The notes beneath the pieces are model-generated. The model worked only from the letters and a program-made list of their open reading frames with translations. It ran no database searches and was not told the origin of the DNA. DNA of 64,000 bases, taken from the IMG/VR virus record IMGVR_UViG_3300047444_000783, positions 45,587-109,586 of that record; one strand, 5' to 3'. This DNA comes from a virus. Shown here piece by piece: positions 22,416-58,982 of this stretch (position 1 is its first letter; every line of letters starts with the position of its first letter). The position numbers and the translations under genes are program-made.

Positions 22416-22445
22416 TTTAATTTCTTAAAGCAGAATAAACGGGCG

Positions 22446-22485
22446 AGAAAATAGCCAGCGGTCGCGTTCTCACCTACCGCTGGCT
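22446..22485 (-). terminator. intrinsic terminator after the capsid genes
   Basis: A perfect 10-bp stem (AGCCAGCGGT / ACCGCTGGCT) with a 13-base loop is followed on the minus strand by ATTTTCT. It lies 4 bases after the stop of the gene at 22490 and separates the capsid transcription unit from the sugar cassette. Confidence 0.75.
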
Positions 22486-22489
22486 GTCT

Positions 22490-22735: not shown

Positions 22736-22761
22736 AGATTGTTCTCCTTTCTTTTAAGAGT

Positions 22762-22797
22762 GTAAGAGCGGCCCGGTTGCCCGGGCCGGATTCTTAC
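22762..22797. other. strong hairpin between capsid-region genes
   Basis: The arms GTAAGA...TCTTAC enclose an 8-bp GC stem (CGGCCCGG / CCGGGCCG, loop TTGC). It overlaps the stop of the gene at 22794. No clear T-run follows on the minus strand, so it may be an RNA-processing or weak termination site. Confidence 0.5.
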
Positions 22798-23354: not shown

Positions 23355-23369
23355 TGTTTTATCCTCCCC

Positions 23370-24356: not shown

Positions 24357-24482
24357 AACTTAGTCTCCTTTGAAAAATTTGGGTCTGTCCATGTGACCAC
24401 TGTCGCTAAATCGACGGTCTGACTGACCTTCCGGGCTGGCCGGCCTCGGTTACGGTCGCAAACTAAGTCGTGGCGTTGGTCG

Positions 24483-25364
24483 TTAAAATTTGCCCTCGTT
24501 GACAAGTTCCTGGCCGGCCGCAGCCGCCGCTTCCTGCCACGTGGCGTATCCTTTGTCACCCGTGCCGCCGCTCGTGCGGTTGCGCTCCTGCTCCAGCCGT
24601 AACTCGAGCGGTCCGCGTCCTGGCGCTCCTGGACCACCCGGTCCGCCGCCGCCTGGCACGTTCTGATTCGTGTTGTGCTTTTCAGCCCATTCCTTTTCCC
24701 ACTGAGCGCGCTCGAGTTTCTTGAGTTCGTCCGCGTTCTTGGCCGTGTAGGCTTCGGATAGATCGAGGTTCTTACCGAGAGCCGCCTGATCGTTCGTGAA
24801 CTTGATCAACTCGGTGATCTCGGCCTTCGTCATGCGCTTGCCGAACTTCTCGATGTGGCTGGCCTGGATTTCGTTGATCGTCAGGATCTGGTCGCCGATA
24901 AATCCAATCCCGTCCTGCCATTTCTTATTCAACTCGTCTGGCGTCACGACGCTCTTCAGCCGCTCCTGGAGACCAGTGATGCCGGCGCTGAGTTTCGCGA
25001 TTTCCTTGGATACCGCATCCTCTTCAGCGGGCGTCCGCTCGCCACCGCGGCCCGATCCGCCAGCGGCTTCGAGTTCGGCGATTCGTGCCTGGGCTGCCGT
25101 GACCGCGTCATTCGCCTTCTTGACTTCGTCTTTCCATGCGGTGACAGCGGCATTCGATTTGTCGTAAAAGTCTTTGTTCTTGACGTCCCAATCGGCTTTC
25201 TCAGCCTTCAGGGCATTCGCCTGGCGGGTGTAATCTTCGCGCGACATCCACAGATTCTGAACATCGGCCGGCGCGTCCTCGAGCGTGGCAATCAGGTTCG
25301 CTCGGTACTTCTCGTCCATCTGCGTCTTTTCAAGCTGCTCTTTGAGTTTCGGATTAATTGGCAT
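24483..25364 (-). CDS. capsid scaffolding protein
   Basis: A 293 aa, highly charged protein. Residues about 40-150 form a long coiled coil (WKDEVKKANDAVTAAQARIA), followed by helices to about 225. A Gly/Pro-rich linker and a basic tail (RGPLELRLEQERNRTSG) close it. This architecture directly upstream of the capsid gene is typical of phage scaffolds. The predicted capsid-binding tail is C-terminal. Confidence 0.8.
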   Translation of the reverse strand: MPINPKLKEQLEKTQMDEKYRANLIATLEDAPADVQNLWMSREDYTRQANALKAEKADWDVKNKDFYDKSNAAVTAWKDEVKKANDAVTAAQARIAELEAAGGSGRGGERTPAEEDAVSKEIAKLSAGITGLQERLKSVVTPDELNKKWQDGIGFIGDQILTINEIQASHIEKFGKRMTKAEITELIKFTNDQAALGKNLDLSEAYTAKNADELKKLERAQWEKEWAEKHNTNQNVPGGGGPGGPGAPGRGPLELRLEQERNRTSGGTGDKGYATWQEAAAAAGQELVNEGKF

Positions 25365-25530
25365 GGTCCCTCGCTTCCGGATCCTTCGCGGCCATCTCTG
25401 GCTAAGCGCTACGGACTAACGGCTACGCGTTTAATAAATTAAATTAACGTTTGACCGTCGTAAGGGAGGGTGTTAGGCTGGGGTTCTACTATCGTTCCCT
25501 GGCCGATCGCTCCCACGCGGTCGCCACTGA

Positions 25531-25560
25531 AAGCGGTCGGCCCGGCAAGGTCGGCCGCTT
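25531..25560. other. terminator-like hairpin upstream of the scaffold gene
   Basis: A 12-bp stem with two G-U pairs (AAGCGGTCGGCC / GGTCGGCCGCTT, loop CGGCAA). A T-rich tract (TTCTTTCT) follows on the plus strand; on the minus strand only TCAG follows. It separates the gene at 25592 from the scaffold-capsid unit. Confidence 0.5.
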
Positions 25561-25571
25561 TTCTTTCTACA

Positions 25572-25597
25572 ACTTTAGGCTAATCGGTCTGTCAAGA
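25572..25597 (-). promoter_or_regulatory. 26-base conserved motif at a stop codon (copy 1)
   Basis: On the minus strand this reads TCTTGACAGA then CCGATTAGCCTAAAGT. It is 22/26 identical to the element at 40648-40673. Both begin inside the last codons of the preceding gene, so that TTGACA overlaps the TGA stop. TTGACA looks like a -35 box but no -10 box lies 16-18 bases away. Copy 1 precedes the scaffold-capsid unit. Confidence 0.5.
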
Positions 25598-25786
25598 GCG
25601 GTTCCAAATCTCTGTCAAATCCTGCTTGACGCTCAGGTATGTGGGTGTGATTTTGAGGCGTTGGAGTTGCGTGAACGACAGGATGTACGAGCCGTTCCCG
25701 ACGATGATGCTCGTCAGACCGCCGGATGACGAGTTCGGGGTCGTGTCACCGAAATAGGTCTGACCGAAATAGAAGGCGCCGAACAT
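25592..25786 (-). CDS. small tail-associated protein (inferred)
   Basis: A 64 aa protein starting MFGAFYFGQTYFGD, an opening seen in small phage tail or baseplate proteins, followed by a short beta segment. It starts right after the stop of the GT8-like gene. Its last codons contain the 26-base motif. Function unknown. Confidence 0.5.
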   Translation of the reverse strand: MFGAFYFGQTYFGDTTPNSSSGGLTSIIVGNGSYILSFTQLQRLKITPTYLSVKQDLTEIWNRS

Positions 25787-26515
25787 TTACATACACTCCG
25801 ATGGGCACTCTCTGTGGGCGCGCCACTCATCCGCGTACGGCGCGTCCTCATATCCAATGACGTCCGGCACCCCTTCGGTGTAGTGGACGATCGCCGGGTC
25901 GAGATCGGGCGACGAATGGCCGGCCAGCCAGTTCCACTCCTCCGGCAGCCGTCCGATCTGGCTGTCATCCAACCAGCAGAACCGATGGAGGTCGCGGCCT
26001 GGCAGACTGTTCAGCGCCGTCAGCGTCAGCTTCTGGTGCGCCGGATGCTCGAGATTCCAGAGCATCACCGAACTCCAGTTCTTACGCGCGTACGGCAGTT
26101 GAGGGTCTCCGTCCTTCTTCGTAGGCGTCTGCGGTGTGTAATCGTGCTGGACTACCATCACCGCGTACTGTGGATGCGCCAGTTTGACCAACTCCGCAAT
26201 CCCGCGACGGAAGAGCACGTCACCATCGGTAAAGAGCGCCCAGCCCTTGGCCGGCAGCATCTGTGGTATGAAAAACCGTGCGATCGCATGGTCGGTCGAC
26301 ATCGGCGCATCCGATACGACATCCCAGAGGCGGCCGGACCGTAAAGCCTCGGCCTGCCGCATGACCGTCCGGCGCCAATAAAGGCTTGGGATCATCCGGT
26401 AGTAAAGCGGCTGCACGTCGACCGGCAGTTGCGTGGTGTACAGCAGCGAGTCCTTCGCAACCCTCCAGGCTTCCCGCTCGTGCGCGCTGTATCCGATAAA
26501 GACCGGGAAACTCAT
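25787..26515 (-). CDS. GT8-like glycosyltransferase
   Basis: A 242 aa protein. WALFTDGDVLFRRGI (about residues 92-106) holds the DGD metal motif of GT-A enzymes of the GT8 or capsular-polysaccharide type. RFCWLDDSQIGRLPEEWNWL and the final HYTEGVPD match the second half of the active site in those families. It is separated from the main sugar cassette by the capsid genes but lies next to the DUF115-methyltransferase fusion. Confidence 0.7.
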   Translation of the reverse strand: MSFPVFIGYSAHEREAWRVAKDSLLYTTQLPVDVQPLYYRMIPSLYWRRTVMRQAEALRSGRLWDVVSDAPMSTDHAIARFFIPQMLPAKGWALFTDGDVLFRRGIAELVKLAHPQYAVMVVQHDYTPQTPTKKDGDPQLPYARKNWSSVMLWNLEHPAHQKLTLTALNSLPGRDLHRFCWLDDSQIGRLPEEWNWLAGHSSPDLDPAIVHYTEGVPDVIGYEDAPYADEWRAHRECPSECM

Positions 26516-26655
26516 TCCGTCGGCTTGGCTTTGAGTGCCGCCCGGGCTGCCTTTAATTCGCCGAGATGACCTGTCTTAGCCAGGATGTCCGATCGAAGCG
26601 CATTGATCAGGTCGTTCAATTTTGCGAGTTCAGCCTGCTTTTCGTCTGCTGTCAT
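26512..26655 (-). CDS. 47 aa coiled-coil protein
   Basis: The start is set at ATG 26653-26655 (MTADEKQAELAKLNDLINAL). It overlaps the end of the upstream gene by 26 bases and its stop overlaps the GT8-like start. It is wholly helical with heptad spacing of Leu and Ala. Function unknown. Confidence 0.5.
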   Translation of the reverse strand: MTADEKQAELAKLNDLINALRSDILAKTGHLGELKAARAALKAKPTE

Positions 26656-28009
26656 GCTTGTTCTCCTTCTTTGACTTTGGTGCGACAACGACATAAAGTT
26701 CGGCGCCGCGGGCGATAATCTGTCCAATCTTGAAAAACTTCTCGAGTTTCTTCCGCCACCAGGCCGCGCCCTTCTGGATCAGGTGCGTATTCCGGCCGTC
26801 CGGCAGTGTCTTGGCCGCCGGTCCGGTATTGATGGTGAAGAATCCCAACTGCCGCACGCAGCGACACAGATCGTCGAGTACGTAGAATAGTTTGTCAGGT
26901 TCGACGTGCTCAAGGACGTCCGTACAAATAACGAGGTCTGCCGATCTGGGCGACTCCTGCTTTCCCGGGATCCCTGGATCGTATTCATAGATGGGAAAGG
27001 CTAGCGCCTTCTGCAGTTGCGACTTCCCGCATCCGTAGTCCAGGACCGAGACCGGCCGGTCACTCTTCTTGGCCAACAGTCCGACCAGTTTCTGTACGGT
27101 CTCGGCATGCTTCCCACCGCCTACCCCGTACGCCAGGTTGTCCCGATGGAGTTGCGCGTTCAATTCTGCGTATTCCGCCGAAATCAATTCTGGCTTGGCG
27201 AACCCGATAACCGCCGGTGTGGCCGGTGCTCCGGACTTCTGCTGGTAATCCTTGGCCATCGCCTGGACGAGGCCTTCACCATAGAACGTCGCCTTAACAT
27301 CTGGCATCTGATCCAACTCGTGCCAGGTCTCCTGCGCGCAGTGCATCACCGAAGAATTTGTGAAATATTCCTTCCCTTTGTACTCCGTGATGGCCCAGTT
27401 CCTAGGTTGATTAGGATGAGCGGCGGCATGATTGCCAACGTCTTTGCGGAAACAGCCGTCCATGCCAAAGATATGAAGTTCAGTGAATCCCATAAAGCGG
27501 GCGATCGTAAGCGCCCTCAGCCCAACACTCGAACCGCCTGTGAGCGCCCACTCGCCAGCCGGCAGCACCCGATGCACGTCCTCGTGTGGCGAGAATACGT
27601 GCCACAGTTTGACATTGGCGCCGTGCTCCATAAGGTGTTCGATGTATTTGGGATGGCACGTCGAGGACGGCAGGTATTCGACCTCGGCATGTGGAAGCCC
27701 AAGCAATTCAACTTTATGATCGCGCGGATCTACTTCGACATGCCAACTTGGGACGATCCCGCGCTCGAGTAAGAACTTGTGAGCGCCCGAACAGGAGATG
27801 ATGAACGGGAAGCCCCGGACCTGTTCCCAGGTCTCGTTGAGAGATGGCCCGTAACAGACGATAGCTACAGGGTCCTGGCGCTTGTCGTAATTCGGCTGGA
27901 TACGTCCAGGCACTCGCGCGGAATTAACGCGCACCTGTTCATCGCGTAGCCAGAGAGGTACCGCGTATTGGACGTCCTGCTTTTCGTTGATATCGAGTCG
28001 CTTGCTCAT
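26630..28009 (-). CDS. DUF115/Maf-like domain fused to SAM methyltransferase
   Basis: A 459 aa two-domain protein. Residues about 45-240 match the DUF115 (MAF_flag10, MptE-like) fold: VAIVCYGPSLNETWEQV, FIISCSGAHKFLLERGIVPS and LTGGSSVGLRAL, with FGMDGCF later. Flagellar Maf proteins of this family transfer nonulosonic acids to flagellin. Residues from about 320 are a Methyltransf domain: SVLDYGCGKSQ, DLVICTDVLEHVEPD and FFTINTGPAAKTLPDG. It may therefore glycosylate and methylate a surface or virion component (inference). Confidence 0.72.
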   Translation of the reverse strand: MSKRLDINEKQDVQYAVPLWLRDEQVRVNSARVPGRIQPNYDKRQDPVAIVCYGPSLNETWEQVRGFPFIISCSGAHKFLLERGIVPSWHVEVDPRDHKVELLGLPHAEVEYLPSSTCHPKYIEHLMEHGANVKLWHVFSPHEDVHRVLPAGEWALTGGSSVGLRALTIARFMGFTELHIFGMDGCFRKDVGNHAAAHPNQPRNWAITEYKGKEYFTNSSVMHCAQETWHELDQMPDVKATFYGEGLVQAMAKDYQQKSGAPATPAVIGFAKPELISAEYAELNAQLHRDNLAYGVGGGKHAETVQKLVGLLAKKSDRPVSVLDYGCGKSQLQKALAFPIYEYDPGIPGKQESPRSADLVICTDVLEHVEPDKLFYVLDDLCRCVRQLGFFTINTGPAAKTLPDGRNTHLIQKGAAWWRKKLEKFFKIGQIIARGAELYVVVAPKSKKENKHDSRRKAG

Positions 28010-44533: not shown

Positions 44534-46105
44534 TTAAAGGTGGTTGTATTCCGGAGTTCCGGAATTCTCCTGTTTGTCAAATAGTGAAAAGTCGGTGTTG
44601 TGGGCGCCGCGGCCGTCATCCGGGAGCGGCGCCTCGTCGAGCATCGTGAACAGGCGTGGATCGAGTTCCATCAGGCAGTAGCAGCAGATCATCGCGCCAA
44701 ACAGCGCGTCGTCGTGCTCACCGCCTGCCGCCTCGAAACGGTCTGTCTGGTCCGGGTTTTCGTTGATGAATGCCTGGCATTCAGAATGGAGTCGAGAACT
44801 CCGGATCTCTACCGAATCGTCGATCAGGAGCGTGCGGAAGCGCGTGATCAGATCGTTCCGCGCTTTCTCGGTACCCGTGTCCCATCCCCAGAAGTTCGTA
44901 AACCGCGACTTCGCAGTCTTATCCTGCCGGCGCCACCGGTAGACCTTCGGGTACCGATGCACATGCAGGATGTTTCCGATGTGCTCGGTCATGTTGTTCG
45001 ACTCGGGCGAAATCTCGCACGTGTTGTACATGTGCCCGAGCGCACAGACCATCTGAGCCAATTCCTTCGGGTTCGCGTACCCGCGGTACTCGACGCACTG
45101 GCGGATCCGTTCGCCCTTACGGCGGGGGACCCGAAAGAACTGGGCTGCCGAGAAGTCCAGTCCGGGAATACCCTTCGCCGGGTCGGATGCCCCGTAATAG
45201 ATCTCCTTGGTTGTCGGCCATTCCCAGATCCAGAGCGGTGCCTGGTTGAGCATGCTCAACTGCTCGTTCGTCAACGGGCCGGTCGCGCTCGCGCTACGGG
45301 CGAAGTACCGGACGAGTAGTGGCTTATCTTCCTTGAAAATCAACTCGCCGGCCCATATCGGGTACCGGACGTCCCGGACTTCGATCTGCGCCAGTTTCTT
45401 TAACGGGAACGCCGGAATGCCCTTAGAGCGGAACGCCGATCGCGCAAACGACGGGTATTCCTGTTCAACCTTCTCGGCATCTCCTTCGGTCGCTTCGAAC
45501 TGCTCGGCCTGCTCTCTCCGCCAGGCCATCTGTTCCTTCGAGATTTCGAACGCATATTGATCGCGGACCTTCGAGGCCAACTCGGTTTCTTCTTTGGTGA
45601 AGTAGAACTGCGACTTCTCGACCTCCGAAGTGAACGGCTTCGAGTACGTCTTTTCCTTCCACCATCCGGCGAATACCGGTTTGAACTGCCCGCGCCCGCG
45701 CATGGCCGCATCCCACATCTTGAGGAACGCGTACTTTTCGCCCGACCCCTTGGCTGTCCCCTCGACCACACAGATGACGTACGGGTTCTTCTTTGGCAGC
45801 GACGGCAGGATGTCCGACGTCAGAATCTCCGGGTGTGTCCAGAGACCGAACTCGGTCGCGTGCACGTTGTGGAGGGTGAAACCTCGAGAGGAACCGCTCG
45901 GCTTGTTCGCCGCGTCGACGAAGAATGCGCTATTCAGACCGGGGTTGCGCATCTGCTCTTCTTTGTCCTTGCGGTTGAATCGAAGGATACCGTCCCCGTG
46001 GTTATTGACCTCGATCTCCGGGCGCATCCACCACGGCAAAAAGCTGTAGGCGAGCACGCTCATATTGAAGATCTGTTTGGAGCGCTTCATCTCGTCGGCG
46101 ATCAC
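44534..46105 (-). CDS. terL: terminase large subunit
   Basis: From GTG 46103-46105 the protein has 523 aa and starts in the middle of the ATPase domain, so this start is too late (see 46106-46531). Visible features: LHNVHATEFGLWTHPE (Walker B-like region with its Glu), ICVVEGTAKGSG (motif III-like), then the nuclease domain with YYGASDPAKGIPGLDFSAAQ (metal Asp) and GGEHDDALFGAMI (final Asp pair). It cuts and packages concatemeric DNA with the small terminase and portal. The probable full length from the ATA codon at 46531 is 665 aa. Confidence 0.85.
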   Translation of the reverse strand: MIADEMKRSKQIFNMSVLAYSFLPWWMRPEIEVNNHGDGILRFNRKDKEEQMRNPGLNSAFFVDAANKPSGSSRGFTLHNVHATEFGLWTHPEILTSDILPSLPKKNPYVICVVEGTAKGSGEKYAFLKMWDAAMRGRGQFKPVFAGWWKEKTYSKPFTSEVEKSQFYFTKEETELASKVRDQYAFEISKEQMAWRREQAEQFEATEGDAEKVEQEYPSFARSAFRSKGIPAFPLKKLAQIEVRDVRYPIWAGELIFKEDKPLLVRYFARSASATGPLTNEQLSMLNQAPLWIWEWPTTKEIYYGASDPAKGIPGLDFSAAQFFRVPRRKGERIRQCVEYRGYANPKELAQMVCALGHMYNTCEISPESNNMTEHIGNILHVHRYPKVYRWRRQDKTAKSRFTNFWGWDTGTEKARNDLITRFRTLLIDDSVEIRSSRLHSECQAFINENPDQTDRFEAAGGEHDDALFGAMICCYCLMELDPRLFTMLDEAPLPDDGRGAHNTDFSLFDKQENSGTPEYNHL

Positions 46106-52449: not shown

Positions 52450-54027
52450 TTGAAGGGCCGACCACTCACCGACGGATTGAAAGAGAAGATCGGACAACTG
52501 CGGCGCAACGGACTCACGACGCGTGAAATCAGCGCTAAGGTTGCCATTTCTTTCGGCGCGATCGCCAAGTACTTACGTAAAGCCGGAATTGATCCTCCAG
52601 ACCCCTCGCCCATTTCCTCCACCATCACCGAGATTTTCGACGCGGAATTTGGCGATGACGAGACGTTAGTCGTCACCTGGGCGCAGAATGCGACTCCACC
52701 ACACCATGGCTTCCTACGGGCGCTCCGGGCTTACTGTAAGCACAATCGTGCACGCCTCGTCATTATCCCCGGACGCTATAAGAATCCGACCAGCACCTGG
52801 ACCGCCAGTCAGCAGAATGAGCAATGGTGGAGCGCTGAATTGGTACCCTACCTGTATAACCGGCGCGTGAAGCTGGGTCCGAATATCGCGCTACTCGCCG
52901 ACATCTGCGTGCAGCCTACGGCCGTTAGCCCACTCTCCGGGATGGAAACCCTGTCTCACGGCGAAAGCAGTGTCATCGGGCATCCGAAACTCCAGTTAAA
53001 GACGGTCCCAACTCCCCATCAACGCTCGCCCAAGATCATCACGACGACCGGGTCGGTCACGCGCGCGAACTACACGGACACGAAGGCCGGCAAGAAAGGG
53101 GACTTTAACCACGTCTACGGGGCGGTCGTGCTCGAGCGGTCGGGAAAGAAGTTCTATCTCCGGCACATCAACGCGCGCTCCGACGGCGCTTTCTGCGACC
53201 TCGACAAAGCGTACTTTGCGGACGGGAAAGTTAGAAACGCCGGGCCATACGCCGGCCTGGTCTTCGGGGACGTCCACGTCGATGCGTGCGATCCGGTCGT
53301 GCTCGACGCGACGTTCAACAAACTCGTCAAGCGGCTAAACCCGAAAGTACTCGTGCTGCACGATCTACTGGACGCCTATTCGGTTAATCCCCACCATGCC
53401 GGTAACCCGTTCATCGCGGTCTCGAAACGCCAGAACGATCTCGATAATCTCCAGGACGAGGTCAATCGGGTCATCGGCTGGCTCCAGCAATACACAGGCA
53501 TCCGGGAGACCGTGATCGTTCCATCGAACCACGACGATATGTTCTCCCGATGGATGTCCCGGCAGGACTGGCGAGACGATCCGACGAACGCCGAGTACTA
53601 TCTCGAGACCGCGCTATTTATGGTCCGCGGGATTAAGCATGGAATCAATGGGACGTCGACGCCAGACCCCCTCCAGTACTGGATTGGGCGCGCAAAGCTG
53701 CCGAACGTCCGATGTCTGAAAGCGCTGGAAAGTTTCATCATCAAGGGGATTGAATGCGGACTCCACGGCCATCAGGGACCGAACGGCGCCCGCGGCAGCC
53801 TGCTCAACCTGAGCCGCCTGGGCGTGAAGGTCATCACTGGGCATTCGCATACGCCAGGCATCGAGGCCGGGCACTACAAGACCGGAACGATGACGCCACT
53901 GAGTCTCGAATATACGGGGCCGGTTAGTGGCTGGCTCAATGCACATGTGGCGATCACACCGATGGGCAAACGGGTAATTTTTGTCTGCGTTGACGGGCAT
54001 TTCTGGAAGGATAGAAAAGTTGCTTAA
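52450..54027 (+). CDS. metallophosphoesterase resembling the phage T5 A1 protein
   Basis: A 525 aa protein with TTG start 5 bases after AGGAGG. Residues 1-48 are an HTH (IGQLRRNGLTTREISAKVAI). The rest has the ordered motifs of a calcineurin-like phosphoesterase: FGDVHVDACDP, VLHDLLDAYSVNPHH, IVPSNHDDMF and ITGHSHTPGIEAGHYKTG. The combination is similar to T5 A1, a pre-early protein needed for host DNA degradation and full DNA transfer. The gene is close to the right end, a similar relative place. The similarity is from memory and not checked by alignment. Confidence 0.65.
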   Translation: MKGRPLTDGLKEKIGQLRRNGLTTREISAKVAISFGAIAKYLRKAGIDPPDPSPISSTITEIFDAEFGDDETLVVTWAQNATPPHHGFLRALRAYCKHNRARLVIIPGRYKNPTSTWTASQQNEQWWSAELVPYLYNRRVKLGPNIALLADICVQPTAVSPLSGMETLSHGESSVIGHPKLQLKTVPTPHQRSPKIITTTGSVTRANYTDTKAGKKGDFNHVYGAVVLERSGKKFYLRHINARSDGAFCDLDKAYFADGKVRNAGPYAGLVFGDVHVDACDPVVLDATFNKLVKRLNPKVLVLHDLLDAYSVNPHHAGNPFIAVSKRQNDLDNLQDEVNRVIGWLQQYTGIRETVIVPSNHDDMFSRWMSRQDWRDDPTNAEYYLETALFMVRGIKHGINGTSTPDPLQYWIGRAKLPNVRCLKALESFIIKGIECGLHGHQGPNGARGSLLNLSRLGVKVITGHSHTPGIEAGHYKTGTMTPLSLEYTGPVSGWLNAHVAITPMGKRVIFVCVDGHFWKDRKVA

Positions 54028-54296: not shown

Positions 54297-54482
54297 ATGA
54301 AATGTATCTGCTGCGATAAAACATTTGGCGACTACGCGCTCAAAACAGGATGCCTTATCCCGATCACGAGCAAACTCAACCTATTCCCGGGTATCGTCTA
54401 CTGCTGCCTCAAGTGCAACCGCGAGATCCTCGAGGACTGGGTCTACAAGAAGCGGGAGATCGCCGACCTGAAGGTCTCGTAA
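54297..54482 (+). CDS. small zinc-binding protein
   Basis: A 61 aa protein (MKCICCDKTFGDYALKTGCL, then YCCLKCNREILEDW) with paired cysteines at both ends. ATG 54297 is preferred to a GTG seven codons upstream. It converges on the tRNA array, whose last gene starts 2 bases after its stop. Confidence 0.6.
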   Translation: MKCICCDKTFGDYALKTGCLIPITSKLNLFPGIVYCCLKCNREILEDWVYKKREIADLKVS

Positions 54483-54483
54483 C

Positions 54484-54553
54484 TGCCCCGGCAGGAATCG
54501 GACCTGCGCTTCCGGATTCAAAGTCCGGCGCCTCACCATTCGGCCACAGGGCA
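54484..54553 (-). tRNA. tRNA-Gln (anticodon TTG)
   Basis: All four arms are present; anticodon loop CTTTGAA, T-loop TCCGATT, 7-bp acceptor stem with one G-U pair. CCA is not encoded. This is the last gene of the array. Confidence 0.9.
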
Positions 54554-54558
54554 AAAGC

Positions 54559-54642
54559 GGAAGAGCGGGGGATCGAACCCCGATGACGCTCACGCGCCGC
54601 CGCATTAGCAGTGCGGACCCTTACCATTCGGGCCACTCTTCC
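54559..54642 (-). tRNA. tRNA-Ser (anticodon GCT)
   Basis: Class II with a long variable arm; anticodon loop CTGCTAA on a 5-bp stem, perfect acceptor stem GGAAGAG / CTCTTCC. Confidence 0.92.
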
Positions 54643-54646
54643 AAGA

Positions 54647-54717
54647 GTCCACGGCCGGAATCGGACCGGCGATAATGGTTTTGCAGACCATCCCCTTAGC
54701 CATTTGGGTACGTGGAC
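54647..54717 (-). tRNA. tRNA-Cys (anticodon GCA)
   Basis: Anticodon loop CTGCAAA, acceptor stem GTCCACG / CGTGGAC, T-loop TCCGATT. Confidence 0.92.
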
Positions 54718-54721
54718 AAGT

Positions 54722-54799
54722 AGCCCCTGAGAGATTTGAACTCTCACCCTTTCGGATCCGGGTCTAAGCCGGACGTGTATGCCATTTCACCAAGGGGCC
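54722..54799 (-). tRNA. tRNA-Leu (anticodon TAG)
   Basis: Class II; anticodon loop CTTAGAC, acceptor stem with terminal G-U pair, T-loop TTCAAAT. Confidence 0.88.
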
Positions 54800-54804
54800 A
54801 AAGT

Positions 54805-54883
54805 GCCGGCCACGAGAGTTGAACTCGTACCCTTTCGGATCCGCTCTTAAGGCGGATGCGTCTGCCTGTTCCGCCAGGCCGGC
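54805..54883 (-). tRNA. tRNA-Leu (anticodon TAA)
   Basis: Class II; anticodon loop CTTAAGA on a GC-rich stem, acceptor stem GCCGGCC / GGCCGGC. Confidence 0.9.
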
Positions 54884-54888
54884 AAAGA

Positions 54889-54978
54889 GGAAGCGGTGAG
54901 ATTCGAACTCACGAGATAGCCTTTCAACTACCCGCCGGGTTTCGGGTCCGGTGTCTTAAACCACTCGACCACGCTTCC
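54889..54978 (-). tRNA. tRNA-Ser (anticodon CGA), C at position 33
   Basis: Class II with a long variable arm; acceptor stem GGAAGCG / CGCTTCC. The anticodon loop is CCCGAAA, so the normally invariant T33 is C, and the stem ends in an A-C mismatch. Anticodon CGA would read TCG. Confidence 0.75.
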
Positions 54979-54982
54979 AAGT

Positions 54983-55066
54983 GCGAACGGAAGGATTTGA
55001 ACCTTCGTAGCCCCAAGGGGCAACAGTTTTACAGACTGCCGTCGTTGGCCGCTTGACTACGTTCGC
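54983..55066 (-). tRNA. tRNA-Tyr (anticodon GTA)
   Basis: Class II as in bacteria; anticodon loop CTGTAAA, acceptor stem GCGAACG / CGTTCGC, T-loop TTCAAAT. Confidence 0.9.
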
Positions 55067-55070
55067 AAAT

Positions 55071-55153
55071 CCCGAACAACAGACTTGAACTGTTACGCCT
55101 TGAAGGGGCACCGGGTTTTGAGTCCGGCGTGTCTACCGTTCCACCAGTTCGGG
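55071..55153 (-). tRNA. tRNA-Leu (anticodon CAA)
   Basis: Class II; anticodon loop CTCAAAA on a stem with one A-C mismatch, acceptor stem CCCGAAC / GTTCGGG. Confidence 0.88.
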
Positions 55154-55267
55154 TGATTTTTGATTTACAGGGATTGACAATAACTGAGGCGTAATGAGGG
55201 TCGCAAGCGGAGTGAGCGCAGGAAACGGTCGATCATGTGGCGAACTGTAATCTTTCGCATGGGGGCC

Positions 55268-55296
55268 ACTTTAAATCCTTTTGTCCAGGATGTCAA
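55268..55296 (-). promoter_or_regulatory. candidate promoter inside the tRNA array
   Basis: On the minus strand TTGACA (55296-55291), a 17-base spacer and TAAAGT (55273-55268). It lies in the 143-base gap between tRNA-Arg(CCT) and tRNA-Leu(CAA) and could drive the last eight tRNAs. The gap also holds a 31-codon Arg-rich frame (55165-55260) of doubtful meaning. Confidence 0.4.
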
Positions 55297-55368
55297 GCGC
55301 CTGCGGAGAATCGAACTCCGGATCGTCGTCTTAGGAGGACGCTGCTCTGTCCGCTGAGCTACAGGCGC
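55297..55368 (-). tRNA. tRNA-Arg (anticodon CCT)
   Basis: Anticodon loop CTCCTAA, acceptor stem GCGCCTG / CAGGCGC, T-loop TTCGATT. The outer pair of the anticodon stem is a G-A mismatch. Confidence 0.88.
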
Positions 55369-55371
55369 GAT

Positions 55372-55441
55372 ACCGAGGCTGGGAATCGGACCCAAATATC
55401 TGGATACACAGGCCAGCATTCTGCCATTGAATTACCTCGGC
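55372..55441 (-). tRNA. tRNA-His (anticodon GTG)
   Basis: Anticodon loop CTGTGTA, acceptor stem GCCGAGG / CCTCGGT with a terminal G-U pair, T-loop TCCGATT. Confidence 0.88.
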
Positions 55442-55445
55442 GCAT

Positions 55446-55518
55446 GCCAGCGGTGGGGTATGATCCCACAGCCCTCCGCTTAAAAGGCGGTTACTCTGTC
55501 CGTTTGAGTTACGCTGGC
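55446..55518 (-). tRNA. tRNA-Lys (anticodon TTT)
   Basis: Anticodon loop CTTTTAA, acceptor stem CGCTGGC / GCCAGCG oriented for the minus strand, T-loop ATCATAC, slightly divergent. Confidence 0.85.
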
Positions 55519-55521
55519 GAT

Positions 55522-55592
55522 GCCACGGGTGGGGATTGGACCCACGACGCCCGGCTTTTCAGACCGGCGCTCTACCACTGAGCTACCGCGGC
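55522..55592 (-). tRNA. tRNA-Phe (anticodon GAA)
   Basis: Anticodon loop CTGAAAA, acceptor stem GCCGCGG / CCGTGGC with one G-U pair, T-loop TCCAATC. Confidence 0.9.
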
Positions 55593-55626
55593 AAGCAGAT
55601 CGCGCGGTCATAGACCGCGTCTACAT

Positions 55627-55698
55627 GCTCGAGGGGAGAATCGGACTCCCGACACCCGGCTTATCAGACCGGAACTCTGACCACTGAGTTACTCGAGC
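55627..55698 (-). tRNA. tRNA-Ile (anticodon GAT)
   Basis: Anticodon loop CTGATAA, perfect acceptor stem GCTCGAG / CTCGAGC, T-loop TCCGATT. Confidence 0.92.
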
Positions 55699-55701
55699 GA
55701 C

Positions 55702-55772
55702 AGGGTGTAGCGGATTCGAACCGCTGATCTTCCGTTAGAGAGACGGAGGACTTGCCGCTAGTCGAACACCCC
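55702..55772 (-). tRNA. tRNA-Glu (anticodon CTC)
   Basis: Anticodon loop CTCTCTA, acceptor stem GGGGTGT / ACACCCT with terminal G-U pair, T-loop TTCGAAT. Confidence 0.88.
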
Positions 55773-55776
55773 AAGT

Positions 55777-55846
55777 AGCGCCGCGGAGAATCGGACTCCG
55801 ATCATCGGGTTGAAAGCCCGATTGCTTACCCTTGGCATACGGCGCC
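55777..55846 (-). tRNA. tRNA-Glu (anticodon TTC)
   Basis: Anticodon loop CTTTCAA, acceptor stem GGCGCCG / CGGCGCT with terminal G-U pair, T-loop TCCGATT. Confidence 0.92.
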
Positions 55847-55864
55847 AAAATTATTCCAAAATTA

Positions 55865-55984
55865 TTCCCACGGTGAAGGTTAGCATCGCTCCTAATCCCT
55901 CATCCCCCCGTCAGCGATGATCGGGGTGCCCTTAACGGAGGCGCCTTGTCAGGCTGACACTTGACTCGTGTCTTGCCGTGGGAA
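55865..55984 (-). ncRNA. candidate structured RNA between tRNA genes
   Basis: A 9-bp closing stem (TTCCCACGG / CCGTGGGAA on the minus strand) brackets about 100 bases that contain further hairpins: GACAC/GTGTC, CCCCG/CGGGG and the alternative pair CATCGCT/AGCGATG. It has no tRNA T-loop and no open frame. It is followed by a doubled AATAATTTTGG. The strand is assumed from the tRNAs. Function unknown. Confidence 0.45.
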
Positions 55985-55992
55985 CTTCAAGC

Positions 55993-56065
55993 GGAGATGA
56001 CCGGATTCGAACCGGCGATATCCTCATCGACAGTGAGGTGCCTTGAGCCGCTAGGCGACATCTCC
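55993..56065 (-). tRNA. tRNA-Asp (anticodon GTC)
   Basis: Anticodon loop CTGTCGA on CCTCA/TGAGG, acceptor stem GGAGATG / CATCTCC, T-loop TTCGAAT. Confidence 0.92.
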
Positions 56066-56069
56066 AAGT

Positions 56070-56140
56070 GCGGTAGACGGGAATCGGACCCGCAATCTCT
56101 TCGTTGGCAACGAAGCGCCTTGCCGTTGGGCCACTACCGC
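56070..56140 (-). tRNA. tRNA-Gly (anticodon GCC)
   Basis: Anticodon loop TTGCCAA, acceptor stem GCGGTAG / CTACCGC, T-loop TCCGATT. Confidence 0.92.
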
Positions 56141-56169
56141 AAACATGTCTAATCGTACATACTTCAAAT

Positions 56170-56239
56170 GCCTCGAGCGGGAATCGGACCCGCAGTCTCT
56201 GGTTGGAAGCCAGACGGTTTACCACTAACCGACCGAGGC
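56170..56239 (-). tRNA. tRNA-Gly (anticodon TCC)
   Basis: Anticodon loop CTTCCAA, acceptor stem GCCTCGG / TCGAGGC with one G-U pair, T-loop TCCGATT. Confidence 0.92.
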
Positions 56240-56244
56240 GAAGT

Positions 56245-56315
56245 ACCCGCGAGGCGACTCGAACGCCTATCATCCTGATTCGTAGTCAGGTGCCTATCCG
56301 TTAGACTACGCGGGC
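56245..56315 (-). tRNA. tRNA-Arg (anticodon ACG)
   Basis: Anticodon loop CTACGAA on CCTGA/TCAGG; A34 is expected to become inosine. Acceptor stem GCCCGCG / CGCGGGT. Confidence 0.92.
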
Positions 56316-56320
56316 AAAGC

Positions 56321-56395
56321 TGGCAGGGTGGGTTTCGAACCCACATCTATTCCGGTTAACAGCCGGACGCATTACCGAATGTTTGCTACCTGCCA
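56321..56395 (-). tRNA. tRNA-Asn (anticodon GTT)
   Basis: Anticodon loop CTGTTAA, perfect acceptor stem TGGCAGG / CCTGCCA, T-loop TTCGAAA. Confidence 0.92.
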
Positions 56396-56397
56396 AT

Positions 56398-56470
56398 CGA
56401 TCCGGTGGGAGTCGGACCCACAACATTCCGCTTTCGGAGAGCGGTGCCCTGTCCATTAGGCGACGGATCG
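56398..56470 (-). tRNA. tRNA-Arg (anticodon CCG)
   Basis: Anticodon loop CTCCGAA on CCGCT/AGCGG, acceptor stem CGATCCG / CGGATCG. Confidence 0.9.
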
Positions 56471-56474
56471 CAAC

Positions 56475-56546
56475 TGGGTCATCAGGCTTCGAACCTGAAA
56501 CATCCGCTTTCAGAGAGCGGCGCTCTGCCAGTTGAGCTATGACCCA
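56475..56546 (-). tRNA. tRNA-Gln (anticodon CTG)
   Basis: Anticodon loop CTCTGAA on CCGCT/AGCGG, acceptor stem TGGGTCA / TGACCCA, T-loop TTCGAAG. Confidence 0.92.
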
Positions 56547-56548
56547 AT

Positions 56549-56620
56549 GCTGTCCCGGGGCAACGATCCCCGAACCTACCGGGTAAGAGCCGGTTGCTCT
56601 GCCAGTTGAGCTAGGACAGC
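56549..56620 (-). tRNA. tRNA-Lys (anticodon CTT) with variant T-loop
   Basis: Anticodon loop CTCTTAC, acceptor stem GCTGTCC / GGACAGC. The T-loop is ATCGTTG instead of the usual TTCGAAT type, the same variant as in the next two genes. Confidence 0.85.
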
Positions 56621-56836
56621 TTATTCAATATATCCAGCAAGTTCGGCCGTGCAGAACGGACGGTCCGTTCTCTCCAGTTGATACCGGTCGAAAACATCTA
56701 ACAATTTCCGAAAGGCAGTACCATTTTCCCTGTCTTCCAATGAGGCAGTAACGAAAATCATAACCGCCGATTCTACACTCTTCCTGAGTAACCGCCGGTG
56801 GCGGCGCCTTTCCGCTCGCGGCTTCTTCTTTCTCAT
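56621..56836 (-). CDS. small basic protein inside the tRNA array
   Basis: A 71 aa protein starting at ATG 56834-56836 (MRKKKPRAERRRHRRLLRKS) with a strongly basic N-terminus and a folded-looking remainder (VMIFVTASLEDRENGTAFRK, then LDVFDRYQLERTD). It begins 3 bases from one tRNA and its stop abuts the other. It may bind RNA. No family recognised. Confidence 0.55.
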   Translation of the reverse strand: MRKKKPRAERRRHRRLLRKSVESAVMIFVTASLEDRENGTAFRKLLDVFDRYQLERTDRPFCTAELAGYIE

Positions 56837-56838
56837 AT

Positions 56839-56910
56839 AGCCCCTGGAGGCAACGATCCCCCAACCTCCCGGGTGTAGGCCGGGCGCTCTGCCGGTTGAG
56901 CTAAGGAGCC
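56839..56910 (-). tRNA. tRNA-Val (anticodon TAC), variant T-loop and C33
   Basis: Anticodon loop CCTACAC, so position 33 is C. The T-loop is ATCGTTG, as in its neighbours. The acceptor stem pairs throughout with two G-U pairs. One T-stem pair is mismatched. Confidence 0.75.
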
Positions 56911-56918
56911 ATGTCAAA

Positions 56919-56990
56919 GCCAACGGCCGGCAACGATCCGGCAACATCCGGTTTACAGGACCGGCGTTCTGCCTATTGAACTACGTCGGC
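56919..56990 (-). tRNA. tRNA-Thr (anticodon TGT), variant T-loop and C33
   Basis: Anticodon loop CCTGTAA on CCGGT/ACCGG, position 33 is C. T-loop ATCGTTG on a perfect T-stem. Acceptor stem GCCGACG / CGTTGGC. Confidence 0.78.
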
Positions 56991-56993
56991 GAA

Positions 56994-57058
56994 GGTCCAG
57001 CCAGTCTCCAGTAACTACCGTCCTAGGACGGCGCTCTACCAGTACATGGGGCCAGACC
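56994..57058 (-). pseudogene. degenerate or unusual tRNA-like gene
   Basis: A 65-base element with a pairing acceptor stem (GGTCTGG / CTGGACC), the D-arm end GGTAGAGC, and an anticodon-like hairpin (CCGTCCTAGGACGG, palindromic), but no recognisable T-arm. The loop can be read CCTAGGA, which would again have C33. Identity undetermined (TAG or AGG). Confidence 0.4.
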
Positions 57059-57061
57059 AAA

Positions 57062-57131
57062 GCCACAGCCGGGAATTGAACCCGAGTATCTCGCTTACCA
57101 AGCGAGTGCCTTACCACTCGGCCACTGCGGC
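57062..57131 (-). tRNA. tRNA-Thr (anticodon GGT)
   Basis: Anticodon loop TTGGTAA on CTCGC/GCGAG, acceptor stem GCCGCAG / CTGTGGC, T-loop TTCAATT. Confidence 0.92.
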
Positions 57132-57135
57132 GAAA

Positions 57136-57207
57136 GCCAGCGGGGAGAATCGGACTCCCGACCTGTGCGTTACGAGTGCACTGCTCTACCAATTGAGCTA
57201 CGCCGGC
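57136..57207 (-). tRNA. tRNA-Thr (anticodon CGT)
   Basis: Anticodon loop CTCGTAA with one A-C mismatch in the stem, acceptor stem GCCGGCG / CGCTGGC, T-loop TCCGATT. Confidence 0.9.
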
Positions 57208-57211
57208 AAAT

Positions 57212-57282
57212 TGCCCCGGGGAGAATTGGACTCCCGACCCTTGGCTTATGAGACCAGTGCTCTACCTCTGAGCTACGGGGCG
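57212..57282 (-). tRNA. tRNA-Met (anticodon CAT), C1-A72 mismatch
   Basis: Anticodon loop CTCATAA. Acceptor stem CGCCCCG / CGGGGCA has an unpaired C1-A72, a feature of bacterial initiator tRNAs, but the anticodon stem (CTGGT / GCCAA) lacks the three G-C pairs of initiators. Its role as initiator, elongator or Ile2 (CAT) is open. Confidence 0.85.
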
Positions 57283-57283
57283 A

Positions 57284-57321
57284 CAAAAAGAAAGGCCGAA
57301 ACCTTGTTCGGGTTTCGGCCT
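57284..57321 (-). terminator. intrinsic terminator or attenuator at the 5' end of the main tRNA operon
   Basis: An 11-bp stem (AGGCCGAAACC / GGTTTCGGCCT) with a 7-base loop is followed on the minus strand by TTTCTTTTT. Its T-run ends one base before the 5' end of tRNA-Met, so readthrough is needed to transcribe the array from the upstream promoter. Confidence 0.85.
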
Positions 57322-57503
57322 GGACTTTCCGGATTTTGCTGTCTGCTTATCCGGTAACCCCAGGCACGCGCGTACCCATGATATTTCGATCATGAGTGCG
57401 TTCGACCTGGTGTTTAAAAGACATAAGTATCTCGTATAATTGCCGACGGCCAGCGGTCTGACCGTCAGAGCAGAAAGGCATTTCAGAACATCAACACAAG
57501 TAG
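57322..57503 (-). ncRNA. structured leader or small RNA ahead of the main tRNA operon
   Basis: Between the promoter at 57537 and the terminator at 57284 the minus strand can form several hairpins: GACGG/CCGTC, CCAGG/CCTGG with GCAC/GTGC inside, CATGAT/ATCATG, and CCGGAT/ATCCGG. There is no open frame. It is either an attenuator leader or an independent small RNA of about 220 bases. The plus strand also has TTTAAA-N16-TATAAT (57414-57441), an antisense promoter candidate. Confidence 0.45.
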
Positions 57504-57509
57504 ATTCTG

Positions 57510-57537
57510 ATTATCCACAACTCGTGCTGGCTGTCAA
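57510..57537 (-). promoter_or_regulatory. sigma70-type promoter
   Basis: TTGACA (57537-57532), a 16-base spacer and GATAAT (57515-57510) preceded by TGTG (extended -10). The same box followed by CAGA occurs at 58806-58833. It points into the structured leader and the main tRNA operon. Confidence 0.6.
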
Positions 57538-57540
57538 GCG

Positions 57541-57560
57541 CTTCCTAATATTTTAGGAAG
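57541..57560. other. 20-base palindrome
   Basis: CTTCCTAA-TATT-TTAGGAAG, 8-bp arms, between the stop of the gene at 57561 and the promoter. It partly overlaps an alternative GGAAGC/GCTTCC hairpin. It could be an operator or a termination structure. Confidence 0.45.
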
Positions 57561-58181
57561 CTACGCTGCTTCCGGCAACGCGGCTCCCGCTTTCTTCCCG
57601 TACTTCCGAATGATCAACTTCTCGATGACCGCGCGTTCATCGTCCTTCGCGACCTCGAGCAGCCCGGCCAGAAACATCTTGGTCGTCCGCGGCAGGTATT
57701 CGGTCACCCGCTTCTTCCGCTTGGCCTTCCGGATCCCCGCCCGTTCTTCGTACGCCCGGATGGCGGCGGTTATCCGCTTGCCGGCGCGGGAGTCGTACTT
57801 GCCGCCTCCATCTTCAATGTCATCCGGGTTGCGTCCACAGAGCGCGACGATCAGACGCCGACGGGGCGTCAACGACGGATCCGGAATCTCCAGTTGGTTT
57901 CGGCCGGCCATCAGTTCGACAAACTTGGCCTGGATCTCCGACTCCGCCTGGAAATACAGCCAATAGATTTCGCCGGCCAGCCACTGCCCGCCCTCGTGCT
58001 CCCGGTCGGCCGCAACCCAACGCTCGACGAATGTCAGGACATTCGGGTCGACGATCCGGTGCGCGTCCGGCTTTCGCGCCCCTAGTTTCTGAACTAAGCG
58101 TACGACCTTCTGATCGCCAAGAATGATCTGCTGTTTCGGCAGATGGATCGCCCTCGGCCGTACTCCCTCTTTAGTACTCAT
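57561..58181 (-). CDS. hypothetical protein
   Basis: A 206 aa protein. ATG 58179-58181 is chosen because GGAGG lies 5 bases upstream. It is helical and basic toward the C-terminus (RAGIRKAKRKKRVTEYLPRT). A TATAGT box and an AT-rich palindrome (GTTTAATTAATTAAAC) precede it. It separates the two tRNA operons. No family recognised. Confidence 0.6.
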   Translation of the reverse strand: MSTKEGVRPRAIHLPKQQIILGDQKVVRLVQKLGARKPDAHRIVDPNVLTFVERWVAADREHEGGQWLAGEIYWLYFQAESEIQAKFVELMAGRNQLEIPDPSLTPRRRLIVALCGRNPDDIEDGGGKYDSRAGKRITAAIRAYEERAGIRKAKRKKRVTEYLPRTTKMFLAGLLEVAKDDERAVIEKLIIRKYGKKAGAALPEAA

Positions 58182-58331
58182 ATGGTCCTCCAAGTTTAAT
58201 TAATTAAACTATACTAAAAGGCTAGAACGGAAGACATAGGCGTGTCTGTCGGTCTGTGTCCGACAGAGTACTTAGGGCGGAGTAGGGCAGAAACGTGGTT
58301 GAAATAGGGTCAAATAGGGCTGAAACGCGAC

Positions 58332-58419
58332 ACGGACGGCGCGATTCGAACGCGCAGCGCGACCATTACGGTCAACCGGTTTTGGAGACCGGTGCTTTCA
58401 ACCATTCAGCCACGTCCGT
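58332..58419 (-). tRNA. class II tRNA with tryptophan anticodon (CCA)
   Basis: An 88-base tRNA with acceptor ACGGACG / CGTCCGT, discriminator G73, serine-like D-arm (GCT/AGC) and a long variable arm (stem GACC/GGTC). The anticodon arm CCGGTCTCCAAAACCGG has loop CTCCAAA, so the anticodon is CCA (Trp). That 17-base arm equals the E. coli tRNA-Trp arm as I remember it. Trp tRNAs are normally class I. Charging by SerRS or TrpRS cannot be decided. Confidence 0.8.
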
Positions 58420-58424
58420 AAAGT

Positions 58425-58496
58425 ACCCTCGGCACGACTTGAACGCGCAACCCTGCCGGTAGAAACGGCTCGCTCTTTCCGTTGAGCTACGAGGGC
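58425..58496 (-). tRNA. tRNA-Arg (anticodon TCT)
   Basis: Anticodon loop TTTCTAC, acceptor stem GCCCTCG / CGAGGGT with terminal G-U, T-loop TTCAAGT. Confidence 0.88.
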
Positions 58497-58501
58497 AAAG
58501 T

Positions 58502-58573
58502 AGACCTCCCGAGAGTCGAACTCGGCGCCTCCGCATTGCAAGTGCGGCGCTCTCCCAGATGAGCTAGAGGCCC
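58502..58573 (-). tRNA. tRNA-Ala (anticodon TGC)
   Basis: Anticodon loop CTTGCAA on CCGCA/TGCGG, T-loop TTCGACT. The acceptor stem contains two G-U pairs; which one serves as the alanine identity pair was not resolved. Confidence 0.9.
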
Positions 58574-58581
58574 AGACAAGT

Positions 58582-58652
58582 AGGGATGTGGAGAATCGAA
58601 CTCCAGAAAGCCGGTGCCCAAGACCGGAGCCATACCACTTGGCGACATCCCT
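58582..58652 (-). tRNA. tRNA-Pro (anticodon TGG)
   Basis: Anticodon loop CTTGGGC on CCGGT/ACCGG, acceptor stem AGGGATG / CATCCCT, T-loop TTCGATT. First gene of the small tRNA operon. Confidence 0.92.
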
Positions 58653-58656
58653 AAAG

Positions 58657-58684
58657 CAAAAAAAAGACCAGCGGTTTCCGCTGG
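58657..58684 (-). terminator. intrinsic terminator or attenuator at the 5' end of the second tRNA operon
   Basis: A perfect 7-bp stem (CCAGCGG / CCGCTGG, loop AAA) is followed on the minus strand by TCTTTTTTTT. It ends 4 bases before tRNA-Pro, the same arrangement as at 57284. Confidence 0.88.
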
Positions 58685-58799
58685 CCTGGGCGATCGTTTT
58701 GTAGGGGCAGCCTACATAACGCCTCCCTGGCTAACGGTCGGCCACGGTCTCGCGGCTGCCGCTGGTACTGTCTGAGTGGAGAATGATGTGAACATGTCG
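58685..58799 (-). ncRNA. structured leader or small RNA ahead of the second tRNA operon
   Basis: Between the promoter at 58833 and the terminator at 58657 the minus strand can pair GGCAGCC with GGCTGCC across about 40 bases, or form GTAGG/CCTAC. There is no open frame. Same promoter-leader-terminator-tRNA layout as the main operon. Confidence 0.4.
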
Positions 58800-58805
58800 G
58801 ATCTG

Positions 58806-58833
58806 ATTATCCATAAGTGGAGAGGAAGTGCAA
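58806..58833 (-). promoter_or_regulatory. promoter of the second tRNA leader
   Basis: TTGCAC (58833-58828), 16-base spacer, GATAAT (58811-58806), preceded by TATG and followed by CAGA. It shares spacing and the -10 context with the promoter at 57510-57537. Confidence 0.45.
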
Positions 58834-58835
58834 GC

Positions 58836-58875
58836 CAAAAGCAAACGGCGACCCGGGTTTCCCCGGATCGCCGTT
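58836..58875 (-). terminator. intrinsic terminator of the tRNA-fMet unit
   Basis: An 8-bp stem AACGGCGA / TCGCCGTT extended by CCGGG pairs with one mismatch, then TTTGCTTTTGG on the minus strand. It ends the transcript of the initiator tRNA. Confidence 0.75.
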
Positions 58876-58910
58876 CCCAGTCGACTGTTTACTCTAGCGT
58901 GGTTTTAAAT

Positions 58911-58982
58911 TGCGGCGGCGTTAATTGAAAACGCTATCTTCTGGTTATGAGCCAGACGGGCTACCGGCACCCTCCAGCCGCG
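58911..58982 (-). tRNA. initiator tRNA-fMet (anticodon CAT)
   Basis: On the minus strand the 5' half GGTAGCCCGTCTGGCTCATA matches the layout of bacterial tRNA-fMet (GGTAGCTCGTCGGGCTCATA). C1-A72 is unpaired; T-stem GCGTT/AACGC is perfect with loop TTCAATT. The anticodon stem TCTGG/CCAGA keeps two of the three G-C pairs. Pair 7-66 is mismatched. It has its own promoter and terminator. Confidence 0.75.

Follow-up and report, generated by a model that had tools for sequence, protein, structure and literature searches.

A Putative Class II Tryptophan tRNA in a Phage tRNA Array

Introduction

Transfer RNAs (tRNAs) for tryptophan are treated as class I molecules, and serine identity is considered to depend mainly on a long variable arm. 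Features of both types are joined in the gene considered here, a phage class II tRNA gene with the anticodon CCA, which lies in a 64,000-nucleotide (nt) stretch of viral DNA, namely positions 45,587 to 109,586 of the IMG/VR virus record IMGVR_UViG_3300047444_000783 (109,586 bases); this whole stretch is called the window below. The nearest known things to such a molecule are the allo-tRNAs of bacteria and the nev-tRNAs of nematodes (PMC7609411, PMC4300185), and no published report of a class II tRNA-Trp was found in the open-licence literature. From the structure and sequence features of this tRNA, its recurrence in other phages and the meaning of aligned codons, we infer that it is probably a functional phage tRNA-Trp of class II, charged by the host tryptophanyl-tRNA synthetase (TrpRS) and decoding UGG as Trp.

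The bacterial Trp identity elements are reported to be the anticodon, G73 and the pair 1-72 (PMC9976931), and the contacts reported for the E. coli TrpRS complex involve the anticodon and the acceptor arm (PMC12135181). As for serine, the pair C2-G71 of E. coli tRNA-Leu is described as an antideterminant for seryl-tRNA synthetase (SerRS), and an amber tRNA-Ser was turned into a Gln acceptor by two acceptor pairs (PMC9976931). Recoding of TGA to Trp is known in crAss-like phages (PMC7886860, PMC12386605).

A Serine-Type Body with a Tryptophan-Type Acceptor End

ARAGORN called the gene at 58329-58420 as tRNA-Trp(CCA), and Infernal delimited a mature molecule of 89 nt, which scores 60.3 bits with the Rfam model RF00005 at a gathering cutoff of 29 (Table 1). 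The original prediction, made by a model from the letters of the window, had placed the gene at 58332-58419; the gene is indeed there, although that span is one base short, G73 being base 58331. The features described in it, namely a Ser-type D arm, G73, the anticodon loop CTCCAAA and a long variable arm that forms a stem of its own, were all borne out. The stems contain 7 (acceptor), 3 (D), 5 (anticodon), 5 (variable) and 5 (T) base pairs (bp), and the variable stem is flanked by one unpaired nucleotide on one side and by four, which precede the T stem, on the other. The minimum free energy fold of the bare tRNA strand is not a cloverleaf.

The same gene, with the same 20-nt arm, is found inside the tRNA arrays of related phages (L026/L034 and L036). 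In a gapless alignment of these three sequences, few as they are, one pair in the D stem, one in the variable stem and three in the T stem changed on both sides, and the pairing collapses once the partners are slid by 1-3 columns. These compensatory changes indicate that the long-arm fold is maintained. No better fold with a short variable loop, which the original prediction had named as a possible objection, found support; a refold of this kind was rejected, because the relatives show compensatory changes and still have the long arm. All three sequences share an identical acceptor stem, while the other stems vary in this compensated way.

Two covariance models were built, one from 25 bacterial tRNA-Ser and the other from 21 class I tRNA-Trp. 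The whole window tRNA scored 60.0 bits with the former and 46.8 with the latter, and its D arm scored best with the Ser profile (log-odds of Trp over Ser, -4.1). The acceptor stem gave log-odds of +26.5 bits for Trp, a value overstated by the treatment of paired positions as independent; this signal arises from the pairs A1-U72 and C2-G71. In the bacterial samples, A1-U72 was present in 14 of 15 tRNA-Trp and G73 in all 15, whereas each of 27 tRNA-Ser had G1-C72 and G2-C71. In all 27, a single unpaired base flanks the variable stem at either end, and none has four on the 3' side. Thus, the isotype comparison proposed in the original prediction favours Ser for the molecule as a whole, which is no ordinary tRNA-Trp, and it shows a Trp-like acceptor stem.

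The 17-nt anticodon arm was originally described as that of E. coli tRNA-Trp. The same arm does occur in bacterial tRNA-Trp (e.g., L206), but the arms of bacterial tRNA-Ser(UGA), CCGGTCTTGAAAACCGG (e.g., L187), match it everywhere except within the anticodon, so the arm alone is no proof of a graft from tRNA-Trp. A Tyr or Leu origin of the window body was considered and rejected, since the Ser profile ranks first for its D arm. The D arms of three other phage tRNAs (L122, L124, L126) fit the Leu profile better, and Tyr-like geometry is seen in several arms; body origins may therefore differ between phage lineages.

Meaning of UGG in the Phage

Three conserved window proteins (Table 1) were aligned with 15 homologous phage stretches. 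The homologous residues at window TGG codons (n = 152) included 68 Trp, 13 Tyr, 10 Phe and 7 Ser, and several of these columns are invariant Trp. TGG makes up 1.77% of the codons in 29 large open reading frames (ORFs), without any avoidance. On the evidence of these sequences, UGG is Trp in this phage, and because TGG falls on conserved Trp columns, efficient insertion of Ser would harm phage proteins.

The class II gene is the only UGG-reading tRNA among the 33 tRNAs of the whole 109.6-kb record, and a pattern search of the same record found no class I CCA tRNA gene, so that its uniqueness in this respect, originally noticed in the window, extends to the entire record. The gene is also present, unchanged, on L028, another contig (56.9 kb) from this phage. 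No TrpRS gene was found in the phage record, which implies the host enzyme, and none was evident in the other records searched (PF00579). Two phage candidates with strong PF00579 matches (G031, G024) were set aside, as they look like tyrosyl-tRNA synthetases by an unscored reading of sequence.

Recurrence in Phages and Cellular Genomes

IMG/VR was scanned with patterns in which a CCA anticodon loop comes after a Ser-type D arm, and every match was checked by ARAGORN. The scans gave 17 distinct phage class II CCA tRNAs, including the window gene; an 18th, in the gut megaphage Prevotella phage Lak-A1 (MK250015, 541,664 bases, complete), was found by BLAST with one of these as the query. The single chimera of the original prediction does combine a Ser body with Trp features, yet it is a member of a recurrent class rather than a one-off. 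All 18 have G73 and 17 have U72 (A1-U72 in 15, G1-U72 in 2), the sole exception being L072/L100 with the Ser-type G1-C72. Among 14 genes from patterns that left position 1 free (13 from phages and the bacterial L061), 10 have A1-U72, compared with 3 of 49 phage tRNA-Ser (Fisher p 1.8e-6, an optimistic value because shared ancestry makes the sequences non-independent). Four further tRNAs, obtained with A1 required, all have U72 and G73. In 10 phage genes, the variable stem is followed by three or four unpaired bases.

In the 19 records searched, a clear class I CCA tRNA accompanies the class II gene only in G022 and G029; ARAGORN does not recognise a third pattern match, from G025 (the L072 record), as a tRNA. 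Many of the records are fragments, for which the absence of a class I gene is weaker evidence; the complete Lak-A1 genome has no class I CCA tRNA by the pattern used. It appears from these searches that the class II CCA tRNA stands in for tRNA-Trp in most of these phages.

One scan of cellular genomes (about 85,000 species) gave 27 pattern matches, of which only L061, from a metagenome-assembled genome of Acidimicrobiia, is a tRNA. Its acceptor and arm geometry are of Ser type, and an ordinary tRNA-Trp is encoded in the same assembly. Both L061 and L100, the latter from a 36-kb viral contig, carry acceptors that are of Ser type throughout (G1-C72, G2-C71), and these two would be better candidates for Ser insertion at UGG than the window tRNA. 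Similar tRNAs of Pseudomonas RVTF4, Acidovorax ACP17, Phage C48C1 and Brevundimonas Gurke turned out to be ordinary tRNA-Ser.

Several other unusual phage tRNAs were noted. Class I and class II tRNA-Trp genes lie close together in L120 and L095 (in G022), both types having A1-U72 and G73. A phage tRNA-Trp(CCA) of 75 nt, in which a short variable loop accompanies a Ser-like D arm (L064, L066, L068, L074), may represent an intermediate of the two architectures. An 87-nt tRNA-Lys(CUU) with a long variable region occurs in jumbo phages of Brevundimonas and Caulobacter, which have cultured hosts (L002, L140), and that of CcrBL9 has a Ser-like D arm. Long variable regions are also present on phage tRNAs with the anticodons Thr(UGU), Cys(GCA), Lys(UUU) and Asn(GUU) (L089, L093, L102, L126). 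Judging from the long arms on Lys, Thr, Cys and Asn tRNAs, such expansion seems to extend beyond Trp.

UCA Versions and TGA Recoding

A partly independent check was provided by a second scan for the same body with the anticodon UCA and A1 required. It gave five phage tRNAs (L129, L130, L132, L133, L134), all with U72, G73 and a 7/5 acceptor branch. ARAGORN labels the UCA versions as SeC, but their 7/5 branch shows that they are not selenocysteine tRNAs (tRNA-Sec). With TGA taken as sense, long ORFs covered a share of 0.86 of the DNA in L134 instead of 0.44, and of 0.81 instead of 0.52 in L215 (the L133 record), and the longest ORF grew from 865 to 2380 amino acids (aa) in L214 (the L129 record). 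In L132 the longest ORF grew from 518 to 1099 aa; recoding is only probable there, because coverage rises equally with TAA as sense. Taking TAG as sense changed little, and in comparable control stretches of AT-rich phages with CCA genes the gain from TGA was at most 0.06. The small sample of alignable TGA positions (n = 17) included 5 Trp, 3 Tyr and 1 Phe. Hence TGA is read as sense in three, probably four, of the five UCA phages, apparently as Trp. The presence of the same body and acceptor features in phages whose UGA apparently codes for Trp supports the view that this body is charged with Trp.

The variable-arm loop of all five UCA tRNAs contains TCCAA, resembling a second Trp anticodon loop. 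In the class II CCA tRNAs of L026, L036 and L091, the loop-side pair 31-39 is broken, leaving 4-bp anticodon stems; stems without this pair, as in L026 and L036, are of a type set aside in the account of UGA readthrough via a 4-bp anticodon stem (PMC13092985). That mechanism was also considered for the window tRNA and rejected, as its stem has the full 5 bp.

Table 1. Positions of the window tRNA, its parts and other features mentioned in the text (window coordinates unless a contig is named)
Feature	Positions	Strand	Basis or remark
Class II tRNA, anticodon CCA, positions 1-73	58331..58419	-	ARAGORN, Infernal with Rfam tRNA
Acceptor stem, 5' half ACGGACG (A1, C2)	58413..58419	-	invariant in L026/L034 and L036
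D arm GCTGAATGGTTGAAAGC, 3-bp stem, Ser type	58394..58410	-	structure, profile comparison
Anticodon arm CCGGTCTCCAAAACCGG, loop CTCCAAA	58376..58392	-	same arm in bacterial class I tRNA-Trp
Anticodon CCA	58383..58385	-	ARAGORN
Variable region, 20 nt, TTGACCGTAATGGTCGCGCT, stem TGACC/GGTCG	58356..58375	-	structure, relatives
T arm GCGCG TTCGAAT CGCGC	58339..58355	-	compensatory changes in relatives
Acceptor stem, 3' half CGTCCGT (U72), and discriminator G73	58331..58338	-	structure, isotype comparison
Array of 33 tRNA genes, all 20 amino acids, includes the class II gene	54482..58981	-	ARAGORN, Rfam
33rd tRNA, anticodon CAU	58911-58981	-	upstream array end
T5 A1-like DNA transfer protein	52450-54024		used in TGG alignment
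phrog_2045 protein	15394-16317		used in TGG alignment
Terminase large subunit	44537-46105		used in TGG alignment
Probable surface glycan genes	12812-28009	-	between structural genes
Class II UCA tRNA	L129:473-512		
Class II UCA tRNA	L130:57-95		
Class II UCA tRNA	L132:3997-4035		
Class II UCA tRNA	L133:1069-1107		
Class II UCA tRNA	L134:11164-11202		
Class II CCA tRNA, Ser-type acceptor	L061:5682-5771		Acidimicrobiia
Class II CCA tRNA, Ser-type acceptor	L100:13995-14086		viral contig
Class I and class II tRNA-Trp genes	L120:4444-4604		
Class I and class II tRNA-Trp genes	L095, around 53550		
Long-arm tRNA-Lys(CUU)	L002:211-297		
Long-arm tRNA-Lys(CUU)	L140:995-1081		

The 33rd tRNA of the array (36.8 bits) escaped both ARAGORN and the default window-wide Rfam scan. 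Elsewhere in the window, a cluster with glycosyltransferases, an aminotransferase, methyltransferase domains and an MptE-like domain probably consists of surface glycan genes.

Alternative Readings

The original prediction offered two options, a tRNA charged with Ser that misreads TGG and a TrpRS substrate with an unusual body. The second is favoured by the acceptor stem, the TGG columns and the UCA phages. Several observations weigh against it: the whole-molecule isotype model calls the window tRNA Ser, six phage genes with Trp-type acceptors retain a Ser-like variable-arm base, and the E. coli TrpRS structure, as described in the cited text, makes no base-specific contact to A1-U72 (PMC12135181). 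If the gene were a Ser tRNA with its anticodon mutated to CCA, SerRS would charge it and Ser would be placed at UGG, as by a natural missense tRNA similar to the allo-tRNAs. This would agree with the D arm and the long variable arm, with a Ser-model score that ranks below tRNA-Ser(CGA) of the same phage and above its tRNA-Ser(GCU) (51.0 bits), with the report that SerRS does not read the anticodon (PMC9976931), and with the existence of class II CCA genes that do have G1-C72/G2-C71 (L061 and L072/L100). Nevertheless, we regard it as unlikely for the window tRNA, which lacks these Ser-type pairs, shares U72 with almost all phage class II CCA sequences and has a variable-arm base unlike that of every bacterial tRNA-Ser in the sample; its acceptor stem stays invariant in relatives when other stems change by compensation, and damage to proteins would be expected at the conserved Trp columns.

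A small but real chance is left to a molecule of dual identity, charged with both Trp and Ser, whose low-level Ser-for-Trp ambiguity is tolerated or used, since determinants for TrpRS (CCA, A1-U72, G73) are combined in it with those for SerRS (the long variable arm and G73) (PMC9976931). However, recognition by SerRS should suffer from C2-G71 and from the altered base of the variable arm, and the phage codons show no avoidance of TGG. Finally, the gene ends at G73 with the 3' CCA tail unencoded, as might be the case for a degenerate or non-decoding tRNA-like RNA, a decoy or a pseudogene. That reading is highly improbable, because the remaining tRNA genes of the array likewise end without the tail, all stems pair, five pairs changed on both sides among the three relatives, and the gene type recurs in many phages.

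Proposed Mechanism and Significance

In the favoured reading, that of a functional class II tRNA-Trp, the host TrpRS would recognise the CCA anticodon, G73 and A1-U72 and charge the tRNA with Trp, which would then be inserted at UGG during phage translation. As Trp identity resides in the anticodon, G73 and the first pair, a class II body with a Trp-type end should suit TrpRS. The non-Ser acceptor (A1-U72 and C2-G71 for G1-C72 and G2-C71) most likely keeps the host SerRS off, and the extra unpaired bases of the variable arm might be a second, lineage-specific guard. Exclusion of SerRS may be incomplete, because the variable arm is its main signal. Presumably, a class II tRNA, probably one for Ser, acquired the CCA anticodon and a Trp-type acceptor stem; the anticodon step would be simple, since CGA differs from CCA by one base. 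As the Trp member of a full-set array, the tRNA would presumably sustain translation when host tRNAs are limiting or attacked.

A reason for keeping the Ser body may be sought in host defence. Septu and retron-Eco7 are reported to cut tRNA-Tyr in the variable loop (PMC13096335), which makes the reshaping of this region a plausible escape route, and phage tRNAs have been proposed to evade anticodon nucleases by loop mutations (PMC10264068). We tentatively suggest, as a possibility that is rather less than even, that phages have repeatedly evolved class II tRNA-Trp (with CCA, or with UCA when TGA is recoded), in which the Ser body hides the molecule from host defences or regulators that target tRNAs and the acceptor was rewired to keep TrpRS and to shed SerRS. 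If true, this would be natural identity switching across tRNA structural classes.

In our opinion, this recurrent natural tRNA, with its Ser body and Trp end, offers a convenient way to learn what SerRS and TrpRS actually require. It may also serve as a scaffold for codon reassignment and bears on the reasons for which phages carry tRNAs. Tools that score the isotype of the whole molecule are expected to label these genes as Ser.

Comparison with Known Systems

Canonical class I bacterial tRNA-Trp(CCA) shares with the window tRNA the loop CTCCAAA, A1-U72, G73 and the Trp-type acceptor stem, but it has a variable loop of 4-5 nt and a 4-bp D stem instead of a 20-nt structured region and a 3-bp stem of Ser type. 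Bacterial tRNA-Ser, of class II, has a similar D arm, a long variable arm and G73; it differs in G1-C72/G2-C71, in one unpaired 3' nucleotide and in its anticodons (NGA or GCU), whereas the window tRNA has A1-U72/C2-G71, four such nucleotides and CCA. A 13-bp acceptor branch with UCA distinguishes tRNA-Sec from the window tRNA, with its 12-bp 7/5 branch and CCA.

The allo-tRNAs (Mukai et al. 2017, reviewed in PMC7609411) are likewise class II bodies with non-Ser anticodons and occur in bacteria; as described there, they have 8/4 or 9/3 branches and Ser (or Ala) identity, unlike the 7/5 branch and Trp-type acceptor found here. The nematode nev-tRNAs also carry a long variable arm on anticodons of class I isotypes, but they are eukaryotic, are reported to be misacylated with Leu in vitro and have mainly Gly and Ile anticodons (PMC4300185). 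The class II tRNA-Trp may be considered a natural counterpart of the laboratory switch from tRNA-Ser to tRNA-Gln. The opal suppressor tRNA(UCA) of TGA-recoded crAss-like phages is also a phage Trp tRNA, one that reads TGA, and no long variable arm is described for it in the cited passages (PMC7886860, PMC12386605); judging from their sequences, the five class II UCA genes look like its class II counterpart.
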